From positions 78,852,053 through 78,916,052 of the forward strand of contig OY720344.1 of assembly GCA_963082975.1 (NCBI GenBank): a stretch of DNA of 64,000 nt. The letters are read 5' to 3'. The notes under the pieces are model-generated. The model did no database searches and was not told the origin of the DNA. It saw nothing but the letters and a program-made list of their open reading frames with translations. Made by a program: the position numbers and the translations under genes. This document shows, piece after piece, positions 2,216 to 56,616 of the stretch; the stretch's first letter is position 1, and every line of letters starts with the position of its first letter. This DNA comes from Labia minor. Taxonomy: Eukaryota; Arthropoda; Insecta; Dermaptera; Spongiphoridae.

Positions 2216-2848
2216 AACCAATTTTTACAGAACGACGATAGTAAGGGAGGTATTGTTTTCACACCAAATTTCACATGTGGAGATTTTTACATATCTCCAC
2301 GAATCATGCATTTTCTTAACAGAAAAAAGTATTTTTAGCATGATGTCTGTCCGTCTGTCCGTCCGTCCGTATAGATGTGTACCGCCTGAACGGCTGAACG
2401 GATTTTGATGAAATTTGGTATATTTACTTAATGCATCAGTGGGATGAATTGATCAACTTTTGGTGCAAATCCGGAAACCGGAAGTGGTAGTGTTAGCGAT
2501 CGACGATAGAAAGGGAAGGGTTATTTTCATACCAAATTTCACATGAGGAGATTTTTTACATATCATCACGAATCATTCACTTTGCATTGGTTTTATACTC
2601 GAGAAAAATCATCTTTATTAGTTTTTTCTTAATTAAAATTATATGACGTCATCCAGCCATTCATGACGTCACAGCCTGGTCTTACATATATTATAAATAA
2701 AATAAAATTAAAAATATCTATGTTATATCCATATCTGTTTTTTATTACATTAATAGATAAATTAAAATTATTTGAAATTGTTTCTGTATCTGGAAATTAA
2801 TTTACTTCAAACCGTCGGTCGGTTCGGACCTGGCCACAGGTCAACTTA
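2216..2848 (+). repeat. R1 repeat, full-length copy
   Basis: This is one of at least seven copies in the window of a roughly 620-640-bp family that I call R1 (not the R1 LINE). Shared landmarks, in order: a start related to ACCGACCGACGATAGTAAGG (diverged in this copy), a TCCG/TCTG microsatellite (near 2347-2372), two blocks containing CACACCAAATTTCACATG, a pair of TGACGTCA-type sites, and an end GTCGGTCGG, then a small hairpin ACCTGgccaCAGGT, then AACTTATT. No coding capacity is seen, so it is non-autonomous. Its uninterrupted GTCGGTCGG end is the empty-site comparison for the Transib insertion at 36492. Confidence 0.85.
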
Positions 2849-3994
2849 TTAAATTAAATTTGTAAATTAAATAAACAATAATCTATAAATTTTATAACTT
2901 TAAGCCAAAAAAGACAGCAATTAAATAAAGAAATAAACATTAATTAATTGGAATAAACCTTTATTTTTGTGAAACAATTTAACGAAAAAGAATATTTTAC
3001 TTAAATGTTTTCTTTAAAATAAATAAATATATTTTATTTAAAAATGTTTACCCCAGGTTTAATAAAATCTCAATCAATCTAATAAGTGAGATGTATTTTT
3101 CAAAATTAAAATTTTAATTAATTGTGTAATATCATAAAATTAAAAAAAATTTCTCTTTAAATGATAATAATTTTGTTAATTTACTCTTTTTTTTAAAAGC
3201 TCAATTATAATTTATATCTTTTAATTTATGAATGAGTATAAATATTTTAAATTTTTATTTAATATACTAATTGATTATTAAATAATATATATATTCGATA
3301 ACAATTTATTTTTAACTGTAATATTTTCTATAGAAATTAGTAAAATTGAAAAGAAAATATTTTTAGTAAAATGAAAAAAATATTGATATTTTGCATTACA
3401 TATTTATAATCCACAGTTCGACTTGTAAACTTATTACAAAAATAAATATATATTAATATTATTATTAATAATAATATACTAAAGTATTAATATATGAATT
3501 TAATAAACACCAAATTATGTAAAATGATAAATATATAGGGGAGAGTGACTCACCTTGGGACACTTTTTATCAATCTTTTTTTTTAAAAACTTTTTCTATT
3601 AATGAATTATTCACAAAATTTTATCTACCATAGTGAACGCGTTCAATCTTTCTCTCTCTTCATTATTAAATAACTTTCAATACCAAATTTATTATAGAAA
3701 CAAAAAATATAATCATAATATAAACATAATCTTGTCTCGTTATGTATTATTTAATAGCTTATCTTGAAACATTTTAAAATAAATATGATAGTTAAATAAA
3801 TTAATACAATTTACTGAAAATGAAATTGTTTTTTTAAAAAAATATTTCAAGTGATAAAATTATTATAAATTAATATTTTTTAATTTTGTTTTTGATATGT
3901 TTTATTTCTAATCCTTGGTACTGTTAAGCCTAATAAGTTCCTTACAGAAGAAATGATAACTATTAATAAACTGAGGTTGCATAGATTAAATAAA
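2849..3994. other. AT-rich spacer, no recognisable gene
   Basis: Nothing but AT-rich low-complexity DNA was seen here; short poly-A/T and TA runs are common. Confidence 0.5.
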
Positions 3995-30423: not shown

Positions 30424-30590
30424 GTAATGTAATAAATAAATTGAAATCATATGGAGTATTTAAATAAACAATCATCTTTATTAAATCTTTATATGTTTTA
30501 ATTCAATTAGTTATTTTTAAAAATTAAATTTTATTATATATTTATTTTGATTAAATTACGAATATTGTTTGTTTTTTTTTGTTGGATTAG

Positions 30591-30907
30591 TATTATGGCG
30601 TCTATGGGACCATATGGCGCTGGTGGGCCACCAAACTCAGGTGCCCATCTTCACCAAGACTCATTACGTTCGCATTATGGTCTCCAAATGGGGTCAGGGG
30701 GGGCGTCTGCTAATTCTAGAGCAAGTTATTATGCAGCTTGTGGAGCTGGTAGAGTCAGTTCCCTACGTCGGGAGAGTAAAACTGCCAAGACACTCTCTAT
30801 TGTGGTGGGTGGCTTTGTCGCCTGTTGGCTGCCATTTTTCGTCACGTATCTACTACAGCCGTTTTGTACAGTACCTGAGAAACTTATGGTCTCACTCACC
30901 TGGCTTG
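30591..30907 (+). CDS. Biogenic-amine GPCR, exon with ICL3, TM6, ECL3 and start of TM7
   Basis: The acceptor is TTGGATTAG at 30590 and the donor is GGCTTG|GTAAGT. It enters in phase 2 and leaves in phase 1. The first 60 codons are a Gly/Ser/His-rich ICL3 (GPYGAGGPPNSGAHLH...). A basic juxtamembrane helix follows (SLRRESKTAKTLS), then TM6 IVVGGFVACWLPFFVTYLL with the CWLPFF toggle-switch motif of aminergic receptors, ECL3 (QPFCTVPEKL) and the first turn of TM7 (TWLG). Confidence 0.92.
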
Positions 30908-30954
30908 GTAAGTATTCTTTGAACATAAGGACTTCCTCTTGTTAACACAATACT

Positions 30955-34950: not shown

Positions 34951-35310
34951 TTCATGACAAATTACACAGAATGGTTAGTAGGAGCGAAATGGTCACATAG
35001 GTATACAAAAGTGTCCGAACTAGAAATTGTAAATTTATTATAATTAGACCAATTCAATAAACTAAAACATAAAAGAAATTAAATCAAGAAACAAGTATTA
35101 TTAATTATGAATTCTGAAAATCTATATAATTCTTTAAAACATAAAATTTATGCAAAATTAAAAAAACAATCTATATGAACAAAAATAAACTATATAGTAT
35201 AAAAAAAGAAAGTTATATATTTATTTTTCTAGCTTTTTCTTTTGCAAATTGATAAATAATATCACCCGTATTTAAGTTATTAAAAGAACTCTATTTCTAC
35301 TTTAATTTTT

Positions 35311-35923
35311 ACCGACCGACGATAGTAAGGGAGGTATTGTTTTCACACCAAATTTCACATGTGGAGATTTTTACATATCTCCACGAATCATGCATTTTCT
35401 TAACAGAAAAAAGTATTTTTAGCATGATGTCTGGCCGACCGTCTGTCCGTCCGTATAGATGAGTACAGCTTGAACGGCTCAACGTATTTTGATAAAATTT
35501 GATATATTTACTTATCGTATCAGTAGAACGAATTCATTGGTGCAAATCCGGAAACCGGAAGTGGTAGTATTAGCGATCGACGATAGGAAGGGAAGGGTTA
35601 TTTTCACACCAAATTTCACATGAGGAGATTTTTTTATATATCACCACGAATCATGCACTTTGTGGTGGTTTTATTCTCGAGAAAAATCATCTTTATTAGT
35701 TTTTTTCTTAATTTAAAATTATATGACGTAATCCAGCCATTCATGACGTCACAGTCTGGTCTAATATATATATTATAAATAAAATAAAATTAAAAATATT
35801 TATGTTCTATCCATATCTGTTTTTTATTACATTAATAGATATATTAAAATTATTTGAAATTGTTTCTGTAGCTTGAAATTAATTTACTTCAAACCGTCAA
35901 ACATGGCCACAGGTCAACTTATT
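35311..35923 (+). repeat. R1 repeat, full copy
   Basis: It runs from ACCGACCGACGATAGTAAGG to AACTTATT. It differs from the others by small changes: a CCGACCGTC variant in the microsatellite, and a terminal segment CCGTCAAACATGGCCACAGG that lacks the GTCGGTCGG motif. Confidence 0.85.
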
Positions 35924-36486
35924 TTCACACCAAATTTCACATGTGGAGATTTTTACATATCTCCACGAATCATGCATTTTCTAAACAGAAAAAAGTATTT
36001 TTAGCATGATGTCTGTCCGTCCGTCTGTCCGTCCGTCCGTCCGTATAGATGTGTACAGCCTGAACGGCTCAACCGATTTTGATGAAATTTGGTATATTTA
36101 CTTAATTCATCAGTGGGATGAATTGATCAACTTTTGGTGTATATCCGGAAACCGGAAGTGGTAGTATTAGCGATCGACGATAGGAAGGAAAGGGTTATTT
36201 TCACACCAAATTTCACATGAGGAGATTTTTTTATATATCACCACCAATCATGCACTTTGTATTGGTTTTATCCTCGAGAAAAATCATATTTATTAGTTTT
36301 TACTTGATTTAAAATTATATGACGTCATCCAGCCATTCATGACGTCACAGCCTGCTCTTACATATATATTATAAATAAAATAAAATTAAAAATATTTGTT
36401 ATATTCATATTTGTTTTTTATTACATTAATAGATATAATAAAATTATTTGAAATTGTTTCTGTAGCTGGAAATTAATTTTTCAAAC

Positions 36487-36491
36487 CGTCG
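36487..36491. repeat. Target-site duplication CGTCG, left
   Basis: Perfect 5-bp duplication with 40139-40143. GC-rich 5-bp duplications are characteristic of Transib and of RAG-mediated transposition. Confidence 0.95.
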
Positions 36492-36529
36492 CACAGTGGT
36501 CTGAAACACCAAAAAAGCTGGCCAAAAAT
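36492..36529 (+). repeat. Transib left terminal inverted repeat with RSS-type heptamer
   Basis: It starts with CACAGTG, identical to the consensus heptamer of V(D)J recombination signals. A 12-bp stretch (GTCTGAAACACC) and then A-rich AAAAAAGCT follow, in the place of a 12-RSS nonamer. Mirrored at 40101-40138. Confidence 0.95.
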
Positions 36530-37051
36530 GTAGATGTTGGTGAAACAGCTTGAAATTTTGTAGGCAATAGTTTTGAGAGTCAGGAAATTTAAATTTGACA
36601 AAAAAAATGGCGAATTCAAAATGGCGGACAGATTTTTAGAAAAGTGACGTCAGATTCGCAATTGTATGTTCTCTGGGATTTTTTGAGCCGAAAATTTCGA
36701 AATTGAAGTTAGATTGTACGAAAAAAAATGATAAATTTCAAATGATGTGTTGATTTTTCAAAAAATGACGTCATGCAGAGAAAATCCGTAAAGCTCACAA
36801 CCATCGAAACTTAGGGGTTTTCATGTTAAGATATTGAAATTAGATGATTTTCTCGATAGTAAAAATATGCCAATTGTGAGTGATGGACTCACTTCAAGAG
36901 AAAGTGCATTTCTGAAAAATATTTTATTATCAGTAAGACAAATAACTAACAGTTACATTTTGGTAAGTACCGTGTTTTATTTCATTTTTATCATTTCGGT
37001 CGTGTTGCAAAAATATATTCTTCTTTTTTATGAAGCTTTATGAATTCACTG

Positions 37052-38869
37052 TTACATTTCATCAGTGCAAGGTGATTCTGGGTCAACATCTTCAATTGTT
37101 GGTGAACAGGCTTGGGACGACATTAGCAATTTGAGTACTTTCGGACTGAGAGGTTCACTTGTTTTCGGCCGCATTTTTTTGAAACTGGATATCACTGGAT
37201 CCGAAGATACCAGTAGCCTTTTGAAAACATCCTCCATTGTTTTTTCACGTGAACATTTCCTTGTATGTTTTTCACGATAATTTCTGATATCCTTGTTCCT
37301 GGCCTCCTGGGCATCTTCGGATAGTTGTCCGATTGGCAAAACAAGAGCATCGATGATTGCATACCCATGAAGTAAAACAATATGCACGGAAGTAGGCATG
37401 GGATACCATTCGTATAAAAGAACATATCTCTCGGCAATTCCCAAGCAAAACTCTTGAAATTTTGGAATATTCACATCGAAGCCGCACGACATCGTTTGCA
37501 AGACAATTTTACAACTCTCCATGATTTCCTCGTCTACTTTTAATATTTTGGCACTTATTGAAACATCCCGGAAAAAACGTAGAGCAGTGTTTCCCTCATT
37601 GGTTGTTCCAGCTCCTGCTTTTGGAATGTCTATGTGCAAACCAAGCTCTTTTTGAAATTTATCTTGAATTTCAAGTTTGCGGGCTGCGACTTTCGCCTTC
37701 ATTTCAACTGAACGTGCCTGCCATTTTTTTTCGCCCTCACTTTCAATGTCTTTATAGGCAAGATGCAAAAACCACTCCATAAATCGGATCCAGGCATGCA
37801 GAGAGCCAATGCCAAATCGAAAATTTTTTTCGTCTACCTCTTTATTGAGAATGAAATCTAAATTGTTGAAATCTTTCGGCGTTGCTTTGCAAATGTAGCA
37901 TCTCATGGCAGGCGAAGTTCCCGTTATAGCGTTTTTCACTTTTCCATCAATCATCGTAAAAGCCAACTGGTAATCTACTTTTATATTGTGTGACGACAAA
38001 ACTGTATTGAATGGCACAAGATTTTCAATCTGTTTTTCGACATATTCTTTTTCAGCCAGAGTGGATTGAACAGTTTCCTTGAGAAATTGGAGTCTCAATG
38101 GCCGGCAAAAACGTGTGGACGAAGGCTTTAAATTGTTCCAAATCAAACAGATATCTTCATTGCCATTTTTTACGAATAATCGCAAAGGAACAACTGATGT
38201 GAAAAAAACGTGAGCATCTGAACTACTGTCATCATGAAATTTTTGTTTGTACTCATCACCAGATGTGCCGTCGCAACCCCATTTCAGAAACAGGGTCAAA
38301 TTGCTGGTTACTTTTGGGTTCAGTGATTCAATAACTTCCTTTTGAGACAATAATAACCTACTTATAGTGTGGTCTAGCAGGGATTGCAATGGGATTTCCG
38401 CACTTGTTTCAGAAATTATCATTTCCGACGTTGGAGGGTAACAACGACTCTTAGCTTCCAAGATTTTTTCATAAGCTGGATAAACAGAGTCGCGACGGTT
38501 TTCATTCGTCATCGATCTTACCAACAAATATGTCTCTTTTGTCATCTTGCCCGTAATAATTAAATATAAAGCAGAGTCAGCAGATATCTCTTTCAGAGGC
38601 TCGTTCAAAGAAACTCTGTAAGCGGCCTGATATTTTCTAGCCCTCCGTGGAGATTTTAACGTCACCTCTTTTAGAATAGTTGACGCTTGTGGGGCTCCAG
38701 ATGCACGCAAACTCATTTGTGTGGCGTACGCTAACTCAGAGGTCGTGTATGAAGATCGCAAGAACTCGGTCTTCCTTCTTTTGCTCCTTTCACTGCAGGT
38801 TTCGAAGTCCGATGAATGGCGACCGCGACTTGTTGATGGTTGATCGTTTGTTGATTTTTCTCGTTGTAT
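37052..38869 (-). CDS. Transib transposase, exon 3 (catalytic core)
   Basis: Encodes residues 99-703 of a predicted 703-residue Transib transposase, the DDE enzyme family from which vertebrate RAG1 derives. It cuts at the terminal repeats through a hairpin mechanism in the nucleus. Visible landmarks: GCDGTSGDEYKQKF (catalytic D298), SSTRFCRPLRLQF, MIDGKV (D406), CYIC zinc cysteines C422/C425, SLHAWIRFMEWFLH, NEGNTALRFF, SVHIVLLHGY with zinc histidines H594/H599, and LPIGQLSEDAQEARNK (E616). Then HTRKCSREKTMEDVFKRLL. The D-to-D distance is 108, the same as D600-D708 of RAG1, and the Cys and His spacings (3 and 5) also match RAG1. The acceptor is ATTTTCAG before 38869 in phase 0; the stop is at 37052. 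Length and motif order fit an intact enzyme. Confidence 0.95.
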   Translation of the reverse strand: MQREKSTNDQPSTSRGRHSSDFETCSERSKRRKTEFLRSSYTTSELAYATQMSLRASGAPQASTILKEVTLKSPRRARKYQAAYRVSLNEPLKEISADSALYLIITGKMTKETYLLVRSMTNENRRDSVYPAYEKILEAKSRCYPPTSEMIISETSAEIPLQSLLDHTISRLLLSQKEVIESLNPKVTSNLTLFLKWGCDGTSGDEYKQKFHDDSSSDAHVFFTSVVPLRLFVKNGNEDICLIWNNLKPSSTRFCRPLRLQFLKETVQSTLAEKEYVEKQIENLVPFNTVLSSHNIKVDYQLAFTMIDGKVKNAITGTSPAMRCYICKATPKDFNNLDFILNKEVDEKNFRFGIGSLHAWIRFMEWFLHLAYKDIESEGEKKWQARSVEMKAKVAARKLEIQDKFQKELGLHIDIPKAGAGTTNEGNTALRFFRDVSISAKILKVDEEIMESCKIVLQTMSCGFDVNIPKFQEFCLGIAERYVLLYEWYPMPTSVHIVLLHGYAIIDALVLPIGQLSEDAQEARNKDIRNYREKHTRKCSREKTMEDVFKRLLVSSDPVISSFKKMRPKTSEPLSPKVLKLLMSSQACSPTIEDVDPESPCTDEM

Positions 38870-39145
38870 CTGAAAATTGAGGTACAAATTTTATAACACT
38901 TGTTTTGGAAAAAATTGTATAATTTGATTGAAAAAAACTGTAAAAGAATGAAAGAATGTACTGTAATTTCACGAAATTTCGAACAAGTTAGTAAAGTACT
39001 CAAGTTTCAGCCTTGATGCGCGCTTGTGTAATAAATAATCATAAAATGTAGAAAAAAAATCGTGATGACTTGCAACGAAAAAGAATTTTGGATAAAACTC
39101 TAAATATTGATTTGTTTTATTCAACGCCACATGTATAATACTCAC

Positions 39146-39420
39146 TGCAATATTAATACTTGAATTCAGCCACTTCTCGTTCTTTTTTAGAAATCTATCT
39201 AAAAATCTGTGAGATTCCTTCCATTTAATTTCAAACTGCGAAAGTAAATTTTTCAGTTTTTGTCTTTCATCTGAATCTATTGAAGCTGACTCGATTTTCT
39301 TAGTGGAAAATAATTTCTTTTCCAAAATTGCAATTTTCTCATCCTGGCTTGACTTCGAAAACTCTCTTAGTGTCTCGAAAATTTCTTTCCGAGTACACTG
39401 TATTACGGTAGGCTGTGACT
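39146..39420 (-). CDS. Transib transposase, exon 2 (N-terminal region)
   Basis: Encodes residues 7-98, starting ESQPTVIQCTRKEIF. It is rich in Lys/Glu and predicted helical (LREFSKSSQDEKIAILEKKL, KLKNLLSQFEIKWKES). The acceptor is TTTTTTTTCAG before 39420 (phase 1 entry) and the donor is ATTGCA|GTGAGT after 39146 (phase 0). Phases match exon 1 and exon 3 exactly. No known N-terminal domain is recognisable; Transib proteins lack the RAG1 RING region. Confidence 0.85.
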
Positions 39421-39850
39421 CTGAAAAAAAAATGCACATTTACACATAATGAGAGTCACATGAATTCGAAGGAGAACAACTATATTATGCATCTAAAATA
39501 GGCGACGGAATTCGAGAAAAGGTGAGCTGTTACATTGATTTTACTTCAAATATCTTTCCTTCTTTTGAAAAGTGACAGGTGCACCTTAACGAGATATTAA
39601 TCAAAAAATTCATAGGAACAAATGGGGCAAAAAGGAGCAATTTTTTCTTCATGATTCTTTATCTATAGACCTTTATCTTTATGTTTCAAATGAGATTGTC
39701 ACCAATGGTCACCAATGTAAAAAATGCGGAATGTTTTTTGAAAAGTTTTTCGTCAGGTTACATTTTCTGACACAAGCGGTTTAAATCAGCCAATATCAAT
39801 ATAATACATGCATTTCTAGCAAACAAAATAAAAAAAGTCCATGTACGTAC

Positions 39851-39869
39851 CTCCAGCAACAGTTTCCAT
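39851..39869 (-). CDS. Transib transposase, exon 1 (start codon)
   Basis: A 19-nt coding exon giving METVAG plus one base. The donor is GGAG|GTACGT (phase 1), which joins the two bases AG at 39420 to make Glu7. It is the only upstream ATG I found with a strong donor in the needed phase, 269 bp inside the right terminus. The exon is so short that RNA evidence is needed; the phase fit and the near-consensus donor are good support. Confidence 0.75.
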
Positions 39870-40100
39870 GTCGCAAGTTGCAAATGAAACTTTTCTATGA
39901 AACGAAACACCAATTTTGACTGAGCTCGAATTTCAGACGTTTTGGGAAATCTCTGGAGAAAGTAAAAACAGTTGACTTTGAGATGTTCGGAAAACTCGTA
40001 GAGTCATGGTAGTGCTCTACTTTTTCAGCTTTTCGTACATAAATATGTCTTCAACAAAATACCATAAACGACATGCAAAAAAAAATTTTTTCAATTTTCG

Positions 40101-40138
40101 ATTTTTGGCCAGCTTTTTTGGCGTTTCAGACCACTGTG
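40101..40138 (-). repeat. Transib right terminal inverted repeat with RSS-type heptamer
   Basis: Read inward, it is CACAGTG, then GTCTGAAACGCC, then AAAAAAGCT. It is identical to the left repeat except for one A/G change at position 17. Confidence 0.95.
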
Positions 40139-40143
40139 CGTCG
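40139..40143. repeat. Target-site duplication CGTCG, right
   Basis: Identical to 36487-36491. Confidence 0.95.
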
Positions 40144-40457
40144 GTCGGTTCGGACCTGGCCACAGGTCAACTTATTTTTTTCTTATTCTTGTTTTTATTT
40201 TATAGTTTCACAAAATAAGATATACCTTATAGTTAAAAATAATTTCTATCTATGTTAATAAACAAAATTATCGAATTGGGGAATCCATAAATTCAAAAAT
40301 GATTTTAAAAAAAATTAGAGGATATAATACGAGGTGTGGCTATTAATTAACGAGACTGCTTACAAAAAATGGTTTAATTAAAAAAATTATGGTACAATCG
40401 AACTTTCCCCCTCAATATACTCCCCTCCACTCGCCACACACCGCTTCATCCTTTTTT

Positions 40458-50582: not shown

Positions 50583-51650
50583 TCGGGGTGCATAATAAGG
50601 AACGAATTCAGGTTAACACCCATTTCTATACTTGTTTTCAGGAGAGCTTTAAAATGGCTATGTAAAATTCTAAATATGCCAATGATTAGACTCCCTCGTG
50701 TATGCTATAACAGGCTCCTTAATTTATGTGATATCTCCGACCCAACATACAACTGGGTAACCCAAATGAAAAATATATTTTATGAACTTGGGGAGGGCCC
50801 AGAAAGCCAAGATCATTCCTCAATAAAAACCAAAATTCAATATTTGACCGATAAATTGTTAGATGTGTAGGTATAGGACACGGGATTTCAATAAGATCAT
50901 AGAATCCACCTACTGTCCAAACTATAAAAAACTAAAAGAAAACGACTATTTTTACAATTATTGTGGTTCATTGTCCAAGATAAAATTGATTTGCCAATGC
51001 AGAGTAGCGAACGAAAGAATACTTCTCCTCGTCTCTAGTGGGAATATACATAGGGTTGAACAAGAACAACTGTGCACTATATGTAACAGGCAAGAAAGAG
51101 AGACCCTAGATCACTTGGTGTTACGATGTCCAATATATGAGAACCTTAGGGAACACTACCTGGTGAGATCCAACCGAGAGAGTGTTATGAGGGCAGATAG
51201 CGAGGACAAAATAAATGGTCTATTCTATTACTTAAATGGAATGTTAAGAATGAGATAATTTATGCTGAATGAATGATTTGATTTGAATATTCTAATATTA
51301 TTTTTTTTTTATTTTTATTTTTTTGTGTGTTTTTTCTGTTACCCCTTTTGGATGTATGAGTTTTTTAAGATTCTTTGGTTTGATTTCTGTTTTACGTTGG
51401 ATTTTTTTTTTCTCTTTTCACATCTTACTTATATGGACATTTGTTTTTGTTTTTTTTTCTTTTTTTTGTATTCTTTCTGTTTCTATTTTTAGATTCATAG
51501 ATTTTTAAATAAAATTTAATTTCTGTTATGTTAAATTTTTCTTTGTTTTTGTTTTTGTTTATTTTTTGTAAATCCTCTACCCCAAATAGGGAGAGGATAG
51601 AGATATACTGGGTTGTATATAATCTCTTTAATTAAATAAATAAATAATTT
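50583..51650 (+). pseudogene. 5'-truncated LINE: ORF2 C-terminus and 3' tail
   Basis: An open frame from about 50583 (with no proper start) reads FRRALKWLCKILNMPMIRLP and RVCYNRLLNLCDISDPTYNW to a stop at 50868. It continues in another frame to 51258 with CGSLSKIKLICQCRVANERI, then a zinc-knuckle-like CTICNRQERETLDHLVLRCP. This CxxC...H...C ending is typical of Jockey/I/R1-group LINE ORF2 proteins. The 390-bp T-rich 3' region ends in AAATAAATAAATAA. A frameshift and 5' truncation make it a dead insertion. Confidence 0.75.
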
Positions 51651-55788: not shown

Positions 55789-56616
55789 TCAATCTTTGTA
55801 CTGTTCATGATTTTCTATTGTTGGTGGAGGTGGTAAAAGGACGTATTCAAGGATTAAAGAGTCGCCATCAATAAGTTTTTCTTCTGCCAAAAGATCACCA
55901 AGACGTGTGTCCATTGTGCCAGGGACAAGTTGTCCATCGGAACGTACATACAAACGCAAATGTTGTTCTGCTTTTGCTCCCGATTGATTAGGTACTTCAA
56001 GATGTTCTGCAAATGCATCAATACATCTACCAAGGCTCCAGTCTTTTGATACGAATATAGCAAGGCTTTTACGATTACTACTAAGTGGCGAGTGAACATG
56101 GAAATATGCTCTGTTATCCACTGGAATCTTCTTCAAGCCTATAGCTTTTCCTTTTAATCGCATTAATTGTATTTTTAGTGCTGTTTTACATTTAGAATCC
56201 TTTTTTTTTGCTTTGTTAATTCTTTCATCCACTTGACGATTAGCTTCCGCTTTAGCTTCTTCAAATTGTTTTTTAATAGCAAGGGAATGTTCGCGTGCCT
56301 TGCGTCGTCGCTCTTTGGCATTCAATGAATGATCCTCATGGTGTCTATGATCTAAACAAAAGTGCTGACTACATTGTGAACAAAGCATCTGATGGATACT
56401 CTTCGATGTACAACCTTCATGAGAACATGCAAATTTTTCTTCACCTTCCATGACTTTTTGTATCTCTTTTGGAGTGACTTTATCACAATCATGTTTATTT
56501 ATGGGAAAATGCTCCTTACAAAATTGTAGTTGACAATGAGTGCAAGTAAAAGGGAGGAAATCCAATTTTTTACATTCTTTATGAGCGCAATGCTCTCCTA
56601 ATTTTGGCATCTCCAT
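55789..56616 (-). CDS. ZFAND1: AN1-type zinc finger protein 1 (ZFAND1)
   Basis: Single-exon 275-residue protein. In the family, ZFAND1 links p97/VCP and the 26S proteasome to stress granules and helps clear them. First AN1 finger: C10, C15, C25, C28, C33, H36, H42, C44 (complete). Second: C64, C69, C79, C82, C87, H90, H96, but the last expected Cys is Leu98. A charged helical linker (residues 100-150, KERRRKAREHS...) follows, then the ubiquitin-like C-terminal domain (about 165-262, YFHVHSPLSSNRKSLAIFVS to GDSLILEYVLL). Length matches the usual 260-290 residues. The start is the first ATG after an in-frame stop, in CAAAATGG context. ANAPC13 ends only 27 nt upstream on the same strand. Plus-strand TTTATT at 55687-55692 reads as AATAAA downstream of the stop. 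Confidence 0.95.
   Translation of the reverse strand: MEMPKLGEHCAHKECKKLDFLPFTCTHCQLQFCKEHFPINKHDCDKVTPKEIQKVMEGEEKFACSHEGCTSKSIHQMLCSQCSQHFCLDHRHHEDHSLNAKERRRKAREHSLAIKKQFEEAKAEANRQVDERINKAKKKDSKCKTALKIQLMRLKGKAIGLKKIPVDNRAYFHVHSPLSSNRKSLAIFVSKDWSLGRCIDAFAEHLEVPNQSGAKAEQHLRLYVRSDGQLVPGTMDTRLGDLLAEEKLIDGDSLILEYVLLPPPPTIENHEQYKD

Follow-up and report, generated by a model that had tools for sequence, protein, structure and literature searches.

A Transib transposon of Labia minor with a near-strict preference for the palindromic end of a Helentron-type repeat

A stretch of 64,000 nucleotides from the dermapteran Labia minor (assembly GCA_963082975.1, contig OY720344.1, positions 78,852,053 to 78,916,052 of the forward strand; hereafter the window, numbered from its first letter) carries a Transib transposon inserted in the 3' end of a rolling-circle-type repeat (hereafter the host repeat). 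What sets this element apart is its near-exclusive insertion at a palindrome in the end of the host repeat, and the genome records its arrivals and, apparently, its departures. The observations are best explained, with a probability of about 85%, by a Transib that inserts almost only at the host-repeat palindrome in either orientation and leaves RAG-like excision scars. The window element is apparently intact and, as judged from its sequence, recently active. Two intact copies of full length, this one included, were found, and the window element probably supplies the transposase for approximately 120 related copies.

Target site of the Transib copies

An earlier note on this DNA had proposed counting the terminus of the element in the genome. 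The 30-base terminus has 242 matches in the 604-Mb assembly when up to three mismatches are allowed, while the reversed pattern has none. This result indicates that the matches do not arise by chance, and their number corresponds to approximately 120 copies. Both ends are present in 26 of the 31 merged stretches fetched: two copies are full-length (3,647 and 3,646 bp) and 24 are internally deleted (1.1-1.4 kb). The second full-length copy (C2:88561419-88565064) is 99.4% identical to the window element; its reading frame is open and its splice sites are intact. Two more copies, diverged by approximately 2% across much of their length, are damaged. A 605-residue protein query gives 29 genome matches, all of which are by position (compared by eye) Transib copies of the window family. 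The near-identity of the copies and the presence of two intact genes suggest that the family may be active at present. A 3.6-kb copy at C6:54826600-54829760 consists of a 1.24-kb Transib derivative and approximately 2.35 kb of unrelated insert with a 134-residue open frame. Many copies have one end with CACAGTGGTATG in place of CACAGTGGTCTG (74 listed), perhaps representing a subfamily of ends.

The DNA adjoining the ends is nearly always the same. Flanks (16 bases, one side) are listed for 174 ends. At 167 of these the insertion point is the same, namely the palindrome ACCGTCGGT within the 3' subterminal repeat of the host repeat, and exactly ACCGWCG (W is A or T) adjoins the element at 165. 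In the first flank search, 98 of the 100 ends listed of 234 are in this site (96 exactly, two with one change) and two are elsewhere, as recounted by script; in the second, for which all matches are listed and classed by eye, 69 of 74 are in the site and five elsewhere. Likewise, ACCG[A/T]CG precedes or CG[A/T]CGGT follows the copy, continued by the host repeat, in 30 of the 31 fetched stretches (one of the 30 copies has one side changed); the exception is C51. The target site duplication (TSD) CG[A/T]CG is alike on both sides in 25 of the 26 two-ended copies, with one side altered at C2:37175664. The 26 complete elements are inserted in the host repeat in both orientations (12 versus 14). Seven copies, C51 included, are known outside the site; five of them have 5-bp TSDs (CGGCG, CGACC, TACCG, CGCCG and CGATG), one has no TSD, and one shows no second end within the sequence fetched. 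The copy with CGACC (C2:28310840-28311750) sits in the 5' end of another host repeat, not in the usual 3' site.

Nearly all copies are therefore at one position of a multicopy sequence, as is the case for a target-specific transposon. The flank counts and the small number of copies outside the site show that the palindrome ACCGWCGGT is the preferred target and that its central CGWCG is duplicated. Exact empty sites, AAACCGTCGGTCGG, number 18,910 genome-wide, or 9,455 per strand, an equality that is unconfirmed, and all 20 that were fetched are host-repeat tails. These sites account for 90.6% of the 20,883 ACCGWCGGT sequences; the shorter CCGWCGG occurs 25,458 times genome-wide.

Excision-type scars and a possible mechanism

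Host-repeat target sites with 3-17 extra bases number 165, while the reversed control gives none and a control position in the same host tail has only two insertions in this size range. Among the 100 listed of these 165 sites, classed by eye, 70 contain an exact CGTCG duplication, 17 contain AAACCGTCGGTCGGTCGG and 13 are others. The list of sites with bases beyond the bare duplication is complete (n = 24). An additional C is found in eight of them, an additional G in nine and an additional CGACG in three (one with a substitution); the other four, classed by eye, are two 11-base additions, one GGTC slippage and one unrelated chimera. Every one of the 17 single-base additions is a C or a G, as hairpin repair predicts. 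HzTransib, the Transib of Helicoverpa zea, forms hairpins on the flanks according to passages of PMC6941560. A tree was built from 69 host copies, of which 20 carry scars, 20 are intact and 29 are occupied. On it the scar-bearing copies require 15 changes for 20 rows, compared with a mean of 17.6 for shuffled labels, and at least four are forced by strongly supported branches; scar-bearing and intact copies alone require 10 changes. These results suggest that most of the target sites with extra bases are excision scars. The same 11-base addition, GATACTCTGTG, which ends as the element end CTGTG does, is present at C9:23403986 and C9:23787911, and perhaps represents an incomplete excision that was later duplicated.

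The following mechanism may account for entry and exit. Two transposase subunits arranged with two-fold symmetry would read the palindrome, which the 3' subterminal repeat of the host repeat supplies in thousands of copies. The element could enter in either orientation, because symmetric subunits would read a palindromic site. Upon exit, the DNA would be cut as by RAG or HzTransib, and hairpins would be formed on the flanks. If these hairpins were opened at the tip or one base off the tip and then joined, CGTCG would remain twice, sometimes with C, G or CGACG between the two. The C or G would then be a single P (palindromic) nucleotide generated by opening one base off the tip, and CGACG would be a whole inverted copy of the duplication.

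Several points weigh against this account. The flanks are known for the 100 of 234 and the 74 ends only, and the ends of a single element do not count as independent observations. Insertions elsewhere are somewhat underrepresented in the lists, because the flank search required A or T as base 16, a feature that is near-universal in host sites but that other sites may lack. In the comparison of 165 with two insertions, the control position has somewhat fewer chances than the target, because the control tail is exact in only 27 of 40 fetched host copies. The 17 of 100 listed scars with AAACCGTCGGTCGGTCGG may be products of GGTC slippage, and the additions of C and G are also readable as one-base duplications. 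Scar labels are slightly clustered on the host tree, the change count being as low in 45 of 500 shuffles, and this tree is weakly resolved, with 42 of 66 inner branches open and with long branches; some scars may therefore have multiplied with the host repeat. The tree contains 20 of the 165 scar copies (18 with the duplication, two of ambiguous kind), and its 20 intact copies are all from the first 0.7 Mb of C1. As regards the mode of target reading, the structure predicted for exon 3 from one sequence has a mean predicted local distance difference test score of 31.5 and is useless.

Alternative explanations

The presence of the same flanking repeat in 30 of 31 stretches, and the great abundance of this repeat, are also consistent with composite amplification, in which one or a few Transib-bearing Helentron-like repeats were multiplied by rolling circle and the shared flank was inherited. 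This explanation was tested and is rejected on divergence: in all 114 pairs of elements belonging to one size class, the divergence between the host flanks exceeds that between the Transibs themselves. The median divergence of the host flanks is 7.5% for pairs in the same orientation and 6.1% for pairs in opposite orientations, compared with 0.35% and 0.40% for the Transibs. In the last 220 alignment columns, the median identity of the host flanks is 97.8%, which is higher than that over 450 bases but still lower than the 99.6% of the Transib ends. Composite amplification is also at odds with the occurrence of both orientations, in which nearly all size classes are represented (eight and eight copies of 1.2 kb, three and four of 1.4 kb, one and one of full length; the lone 1.1-kb copy is in one orientation), and with the 29 occupied host copies, for which the host tree demands 19 changes, five or more of them forced. 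The insertions are independent, and the flank is chosen and not inherited with the element, because all 114 host pairs diverge more than the Transibs; composite amplification is highly improbable. It is unlikely, too, that the 165 scars are ordinary variants or products of repeat slippage instead of excision. Host repeats can multiply a variant, and 17 of the 100 listed scars fit GGTC slippage, but the excess at the target over the control position, the identity of the extra five bases with the exact TSD of the element, the agreement of all 17 single-base additions with the prediction for P nucleotides and the scattering of scar copies on the host tree all argue for excision.

A narrower form of the targeting explanation is on balance probable. 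In this form only the 9-bp palindrome is read, and the host repeat matters solely as the holder of most such sites in a genome rich in AT. Recognition of the palindrome by itself accounts for most of the concentration of copies, because 18,910 of the 20,883 ACCGWCGGT sequences are in the exact host context, and it has a parallel in hopper and transib2 of Drosophila, which use a palindromic motif reaching past the 5-bp TSD according to passages of PMC3276498. However, the 174 listed ends and 31 stretches include no copy at an ACCGWCGGT or a CCGWCGG located outside the repeat, despite the 25,458 CCGWCGG sites, a comparison that is weak because many of these sites will be altered copies of the repeat. 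Reading of the host repeat beyond 9 bp is possible. The transposase might instead recognize DNA shape, with a preference for extruded hairpins, if the 3' end of the host repeat formed two stem-loops. As single-stranded DNA, the 45-base host tail has a folding energy of -10.1 kcal/mol (z = -4.1), but the 5-bp stagger is centred on ACCGTCGGT and not on the stem-loop AACCG-TCGGT-CGGTT, and the copies elsewhere occupy other CG-rich sequence (not folded). Shape targeting is thus quite improbable. Beyond insertion at the host-repeat palindrome followed by RAG-like excision, we somewhat favour the view that this is the first target-specific lineage of the RAG/Transib superfamily, in which the choice of target has narrowed to a host palindrome, maybe with reading of more than 9 bp, and that RAG-like excision with P-nucleotide additions has left more than 100 scars.

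The element, its host repeat and related systems

The earlier note had described a complete, young Transib (RAG1-family) element with an open gene, and this description is borne out. The two terminal inverted repeats (TIRs) are 37/38 identical, with the sole mismatch at position 17, in agreement with the single mismatch noted before; the CGTCG duplication is present on both sides at the positions listed in Table 1. CACAGTG, the exact heptamer of recombination signal sequences (RSSs), opens each end as claimed; this 7-mer occurs three times in the window when both strands are counted, and two of the three are the element ends. The predicted gene has three exons on the minus strand, joined at 39851/39420 and 39146/38869 with GT..AG borders, and its stop codon ends at 37052. 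When it is spliced as the sequence predicts, it has 703 codons without an inner stop, as in the earlier note. In a comparison of the upstream exons for selection, 10 codons differ between the window element and the C2 copy, of which six change the residue; relative to the older C10 copy, six differences are silent and 16 change the residue, one of them to a stop, and this copy also carries a 4-base gap. Support for the N-terminal exons comes from the open frame and splice sites alone, because purifying selection on them could not be shown.

Table 1. Coordinates of the Transib element, its target site and host-repeat copies in the window
Feature	Position	Strand	Remarks
Transib element	36492..40138	- (gene)	3,647 bp; assigned by TIRs, TSD and protein match to HzTransib
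Left 38-bp TIR	36492..36529	+	Starts CACAGTGG; 37/38 identical to right TIR
Right 38-bp TIR	40101..40138	-	37/38 identical to left TIR
TSD CGTCG, left copy	36487..36491		Preceded by AC, giving ACCGTCG (36485-36491), the left half of the palindromic target
TSD CGTCG, right copy	40139..40143		Followed by GT (CGTCGGT, 40139-40145)
Exon 1, coding part	39851..39869	-	ATG at 39869
Exon 2	39146..39420	-	GT/AG borders, open frame
Exon 3	37052..38869	-	Entire DDE transposase core (D298, D406, E620) and stop
Host repeat 5' of insertion	35924..36491	+	Includes (GTCY)n microsatellite, 36011-36044
Host repeat 3' end	40139..40176	+	Remaining 3' subterminal inverted repeat, stem-loop GACCTGGCCACAGGTC, terminus AACTTATT
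Empty host-repeat copy	2224..2850	+	Intact target ACCGTCGGT at 2811-2819; 5' limit by eye
Second, tandem host-repeat copy	35310..35923	+	5' subterminal inverted repeat ACCGACCGACG; damaged tail without target; limits by eye

In a protein match search, residues 193-666 of the predicted transposase match HzTransib (6pqn_A) with an E value of 7.8e-105, and the HzTransib matches comprise 6pqn and five further entries. RAG1 chains in PDB give weak matches only (7e-4 and 2e-3), and the Pfam RAG1 profile PF12940 scores 22.9 bits, which is lower than its cut-off of 25. The catalytic residues of HzTransib are D126, D225 and E436 according to passages of PMC6941560. They correspond to chain positions 109, 208 and 419 (constant offset 17), which are paired in the alignment with D298, D406 and E620. 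When RAG1 is aligned, the glutamate of NESGNK, which we take to be E962 of mouse RAG1, also faces E620 and not E616. The residues D298, D406, C422, C425, H594, H599 and E616 are all as named in the predicted protein. However, of the triad D298/D406/E616 proposed before, only the two aspartates are in register with HzTransib; E616 is four residues off the catalytic position, because both alignments pair E620. The alignment thus speaks against E616 and leaves the element unaffected, a glutamate being present at the right place. The D298-D406 distance of 108 does equal that of RAG1, as noted before, but it is rejected as a mark of RAG1 or of the family, because the distance between D126 and D225 of HzTransib is 99.

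The element has a homologous transposase with the DDE residues in register, TIRs starting with CAC and a 5-bp TSD; it is an ordinary Transib and not a RAG1-RAG2 transposon. A convergent RAG2-like gene is not found, as there is no further open reading frame of at least 120 residues beyond exons 2 and 3 when bacterial start codons are used. A reading of the ends as a 12/23 pair of recombination signals is rejected: both ends are the same repeat without 12/23 asymmetry. The RSS nonamer matches at 6/9 positions on the left end and 7/9 on the right with a spacer of 23, and at 6/9 on both ends with a spacer of 12; the left end also gives 6/9 with spacers of 9-11. Heptamers identical to that of RSSs have already been published for some Transibs, according to passages of PMC6941560 and PMC8355894.

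Subterminal repeats in inverted orientation (ACCGACCGACG and CGTCGGTCGGT) are present in the host repeat, together with a (GTCY)n microsatellite and a 3' stem-loop. Its 3' end is fixed, with GTCAACTTATT present in 38 of 40 fetched copies (one is cut off by the stretch and one is altered). The target starts 40 bp from this end. HINE/DINE-1 elements are non-autonomous Helentrons and, in the passages of PMC4067079 that describe them, likewise have subterminal inverted repeats, one of them approximately 40 bp from the 3' end, a 3' stem-loop and a microsatellite. By its subterminal inverted repeats, 3' palindrome, microsatellite and fixed end, the host repeat is HINE/DINE-1-like. The empty copy in the window agrees at 565 of 594 positions (95.1%) with the sequence obtained by joining both flanks of the insertion. 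The two host repeats at 35310-36491 form a tandem pair, and the tail of the first has no target site.

Other features of the window are an open 275-residue frame with an AN1 zinc finger and a ZFAND1-like ubiquitin-like domain (55789-56616), a frame with a partial rhodopsin-family receptor domain (7tm_1), which is probably an exon (30547-30945), and two fragments related to reverse transcriptase (47-442 and 50863-51258), of which the second (zf-RVT) is under its cut-off.

HzTransib has, by sequence, the same transposase core with the DDE residues at the same places, but its solved chain contains 497 residues, compared with 703 here, of which approximately 185 are extra N-terminal residues. Its TIRs likewise start with CAC and its TSD is 5 bp, while its heptamer is CACGGTG instead of CACAGTG; near-strict target choice is not known for it. 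RAG1 and ProtoRAG share with the element a related DDE core and the heptamer, and may share the chemistry of hairpin excision. RAG1, the one of the two that was compared, gives only a weak direct match, and no RAG2-like gene is seen in this transposon. The 5-bp TSDs of hopper and transib2 of Drosophila melanogaster also lie inside a palindromic motif that extends past them, but this motif is CCANTGG in passages of PMC3276498, whereas it is ACCGWCGGT here and concentrated in one repeat family. Dada and Pokey are also DNA transposons held at one position of a multicopy sequence; according to passages of PMC3706591, they belong to other superfamilies and target RNA genes, whereas the target here is the end of another mobile repeat. 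The titles, abstract openings and passages retrieved by a literature search mention no Transib that uses this target or leaves scars of this kind.

The danger of RAG stems from the ability of its relatives to reinsert DNA over a wide range of sites. A natural relative confined almost entirely to a single palindrome would illustrate how the selection of targets can become restricted in the RAG enzyme family. It would also be a mobile element that exploits the end of a different one as a landing site where damage to host genes is improbable. Together, the thousands of equivalent empty sites and the scar sites, up to 165 in number, would document insertion and RAG-like excision in a setting other than immunity; if this is true, hairpin processing from before immunity would be readable from a germline.

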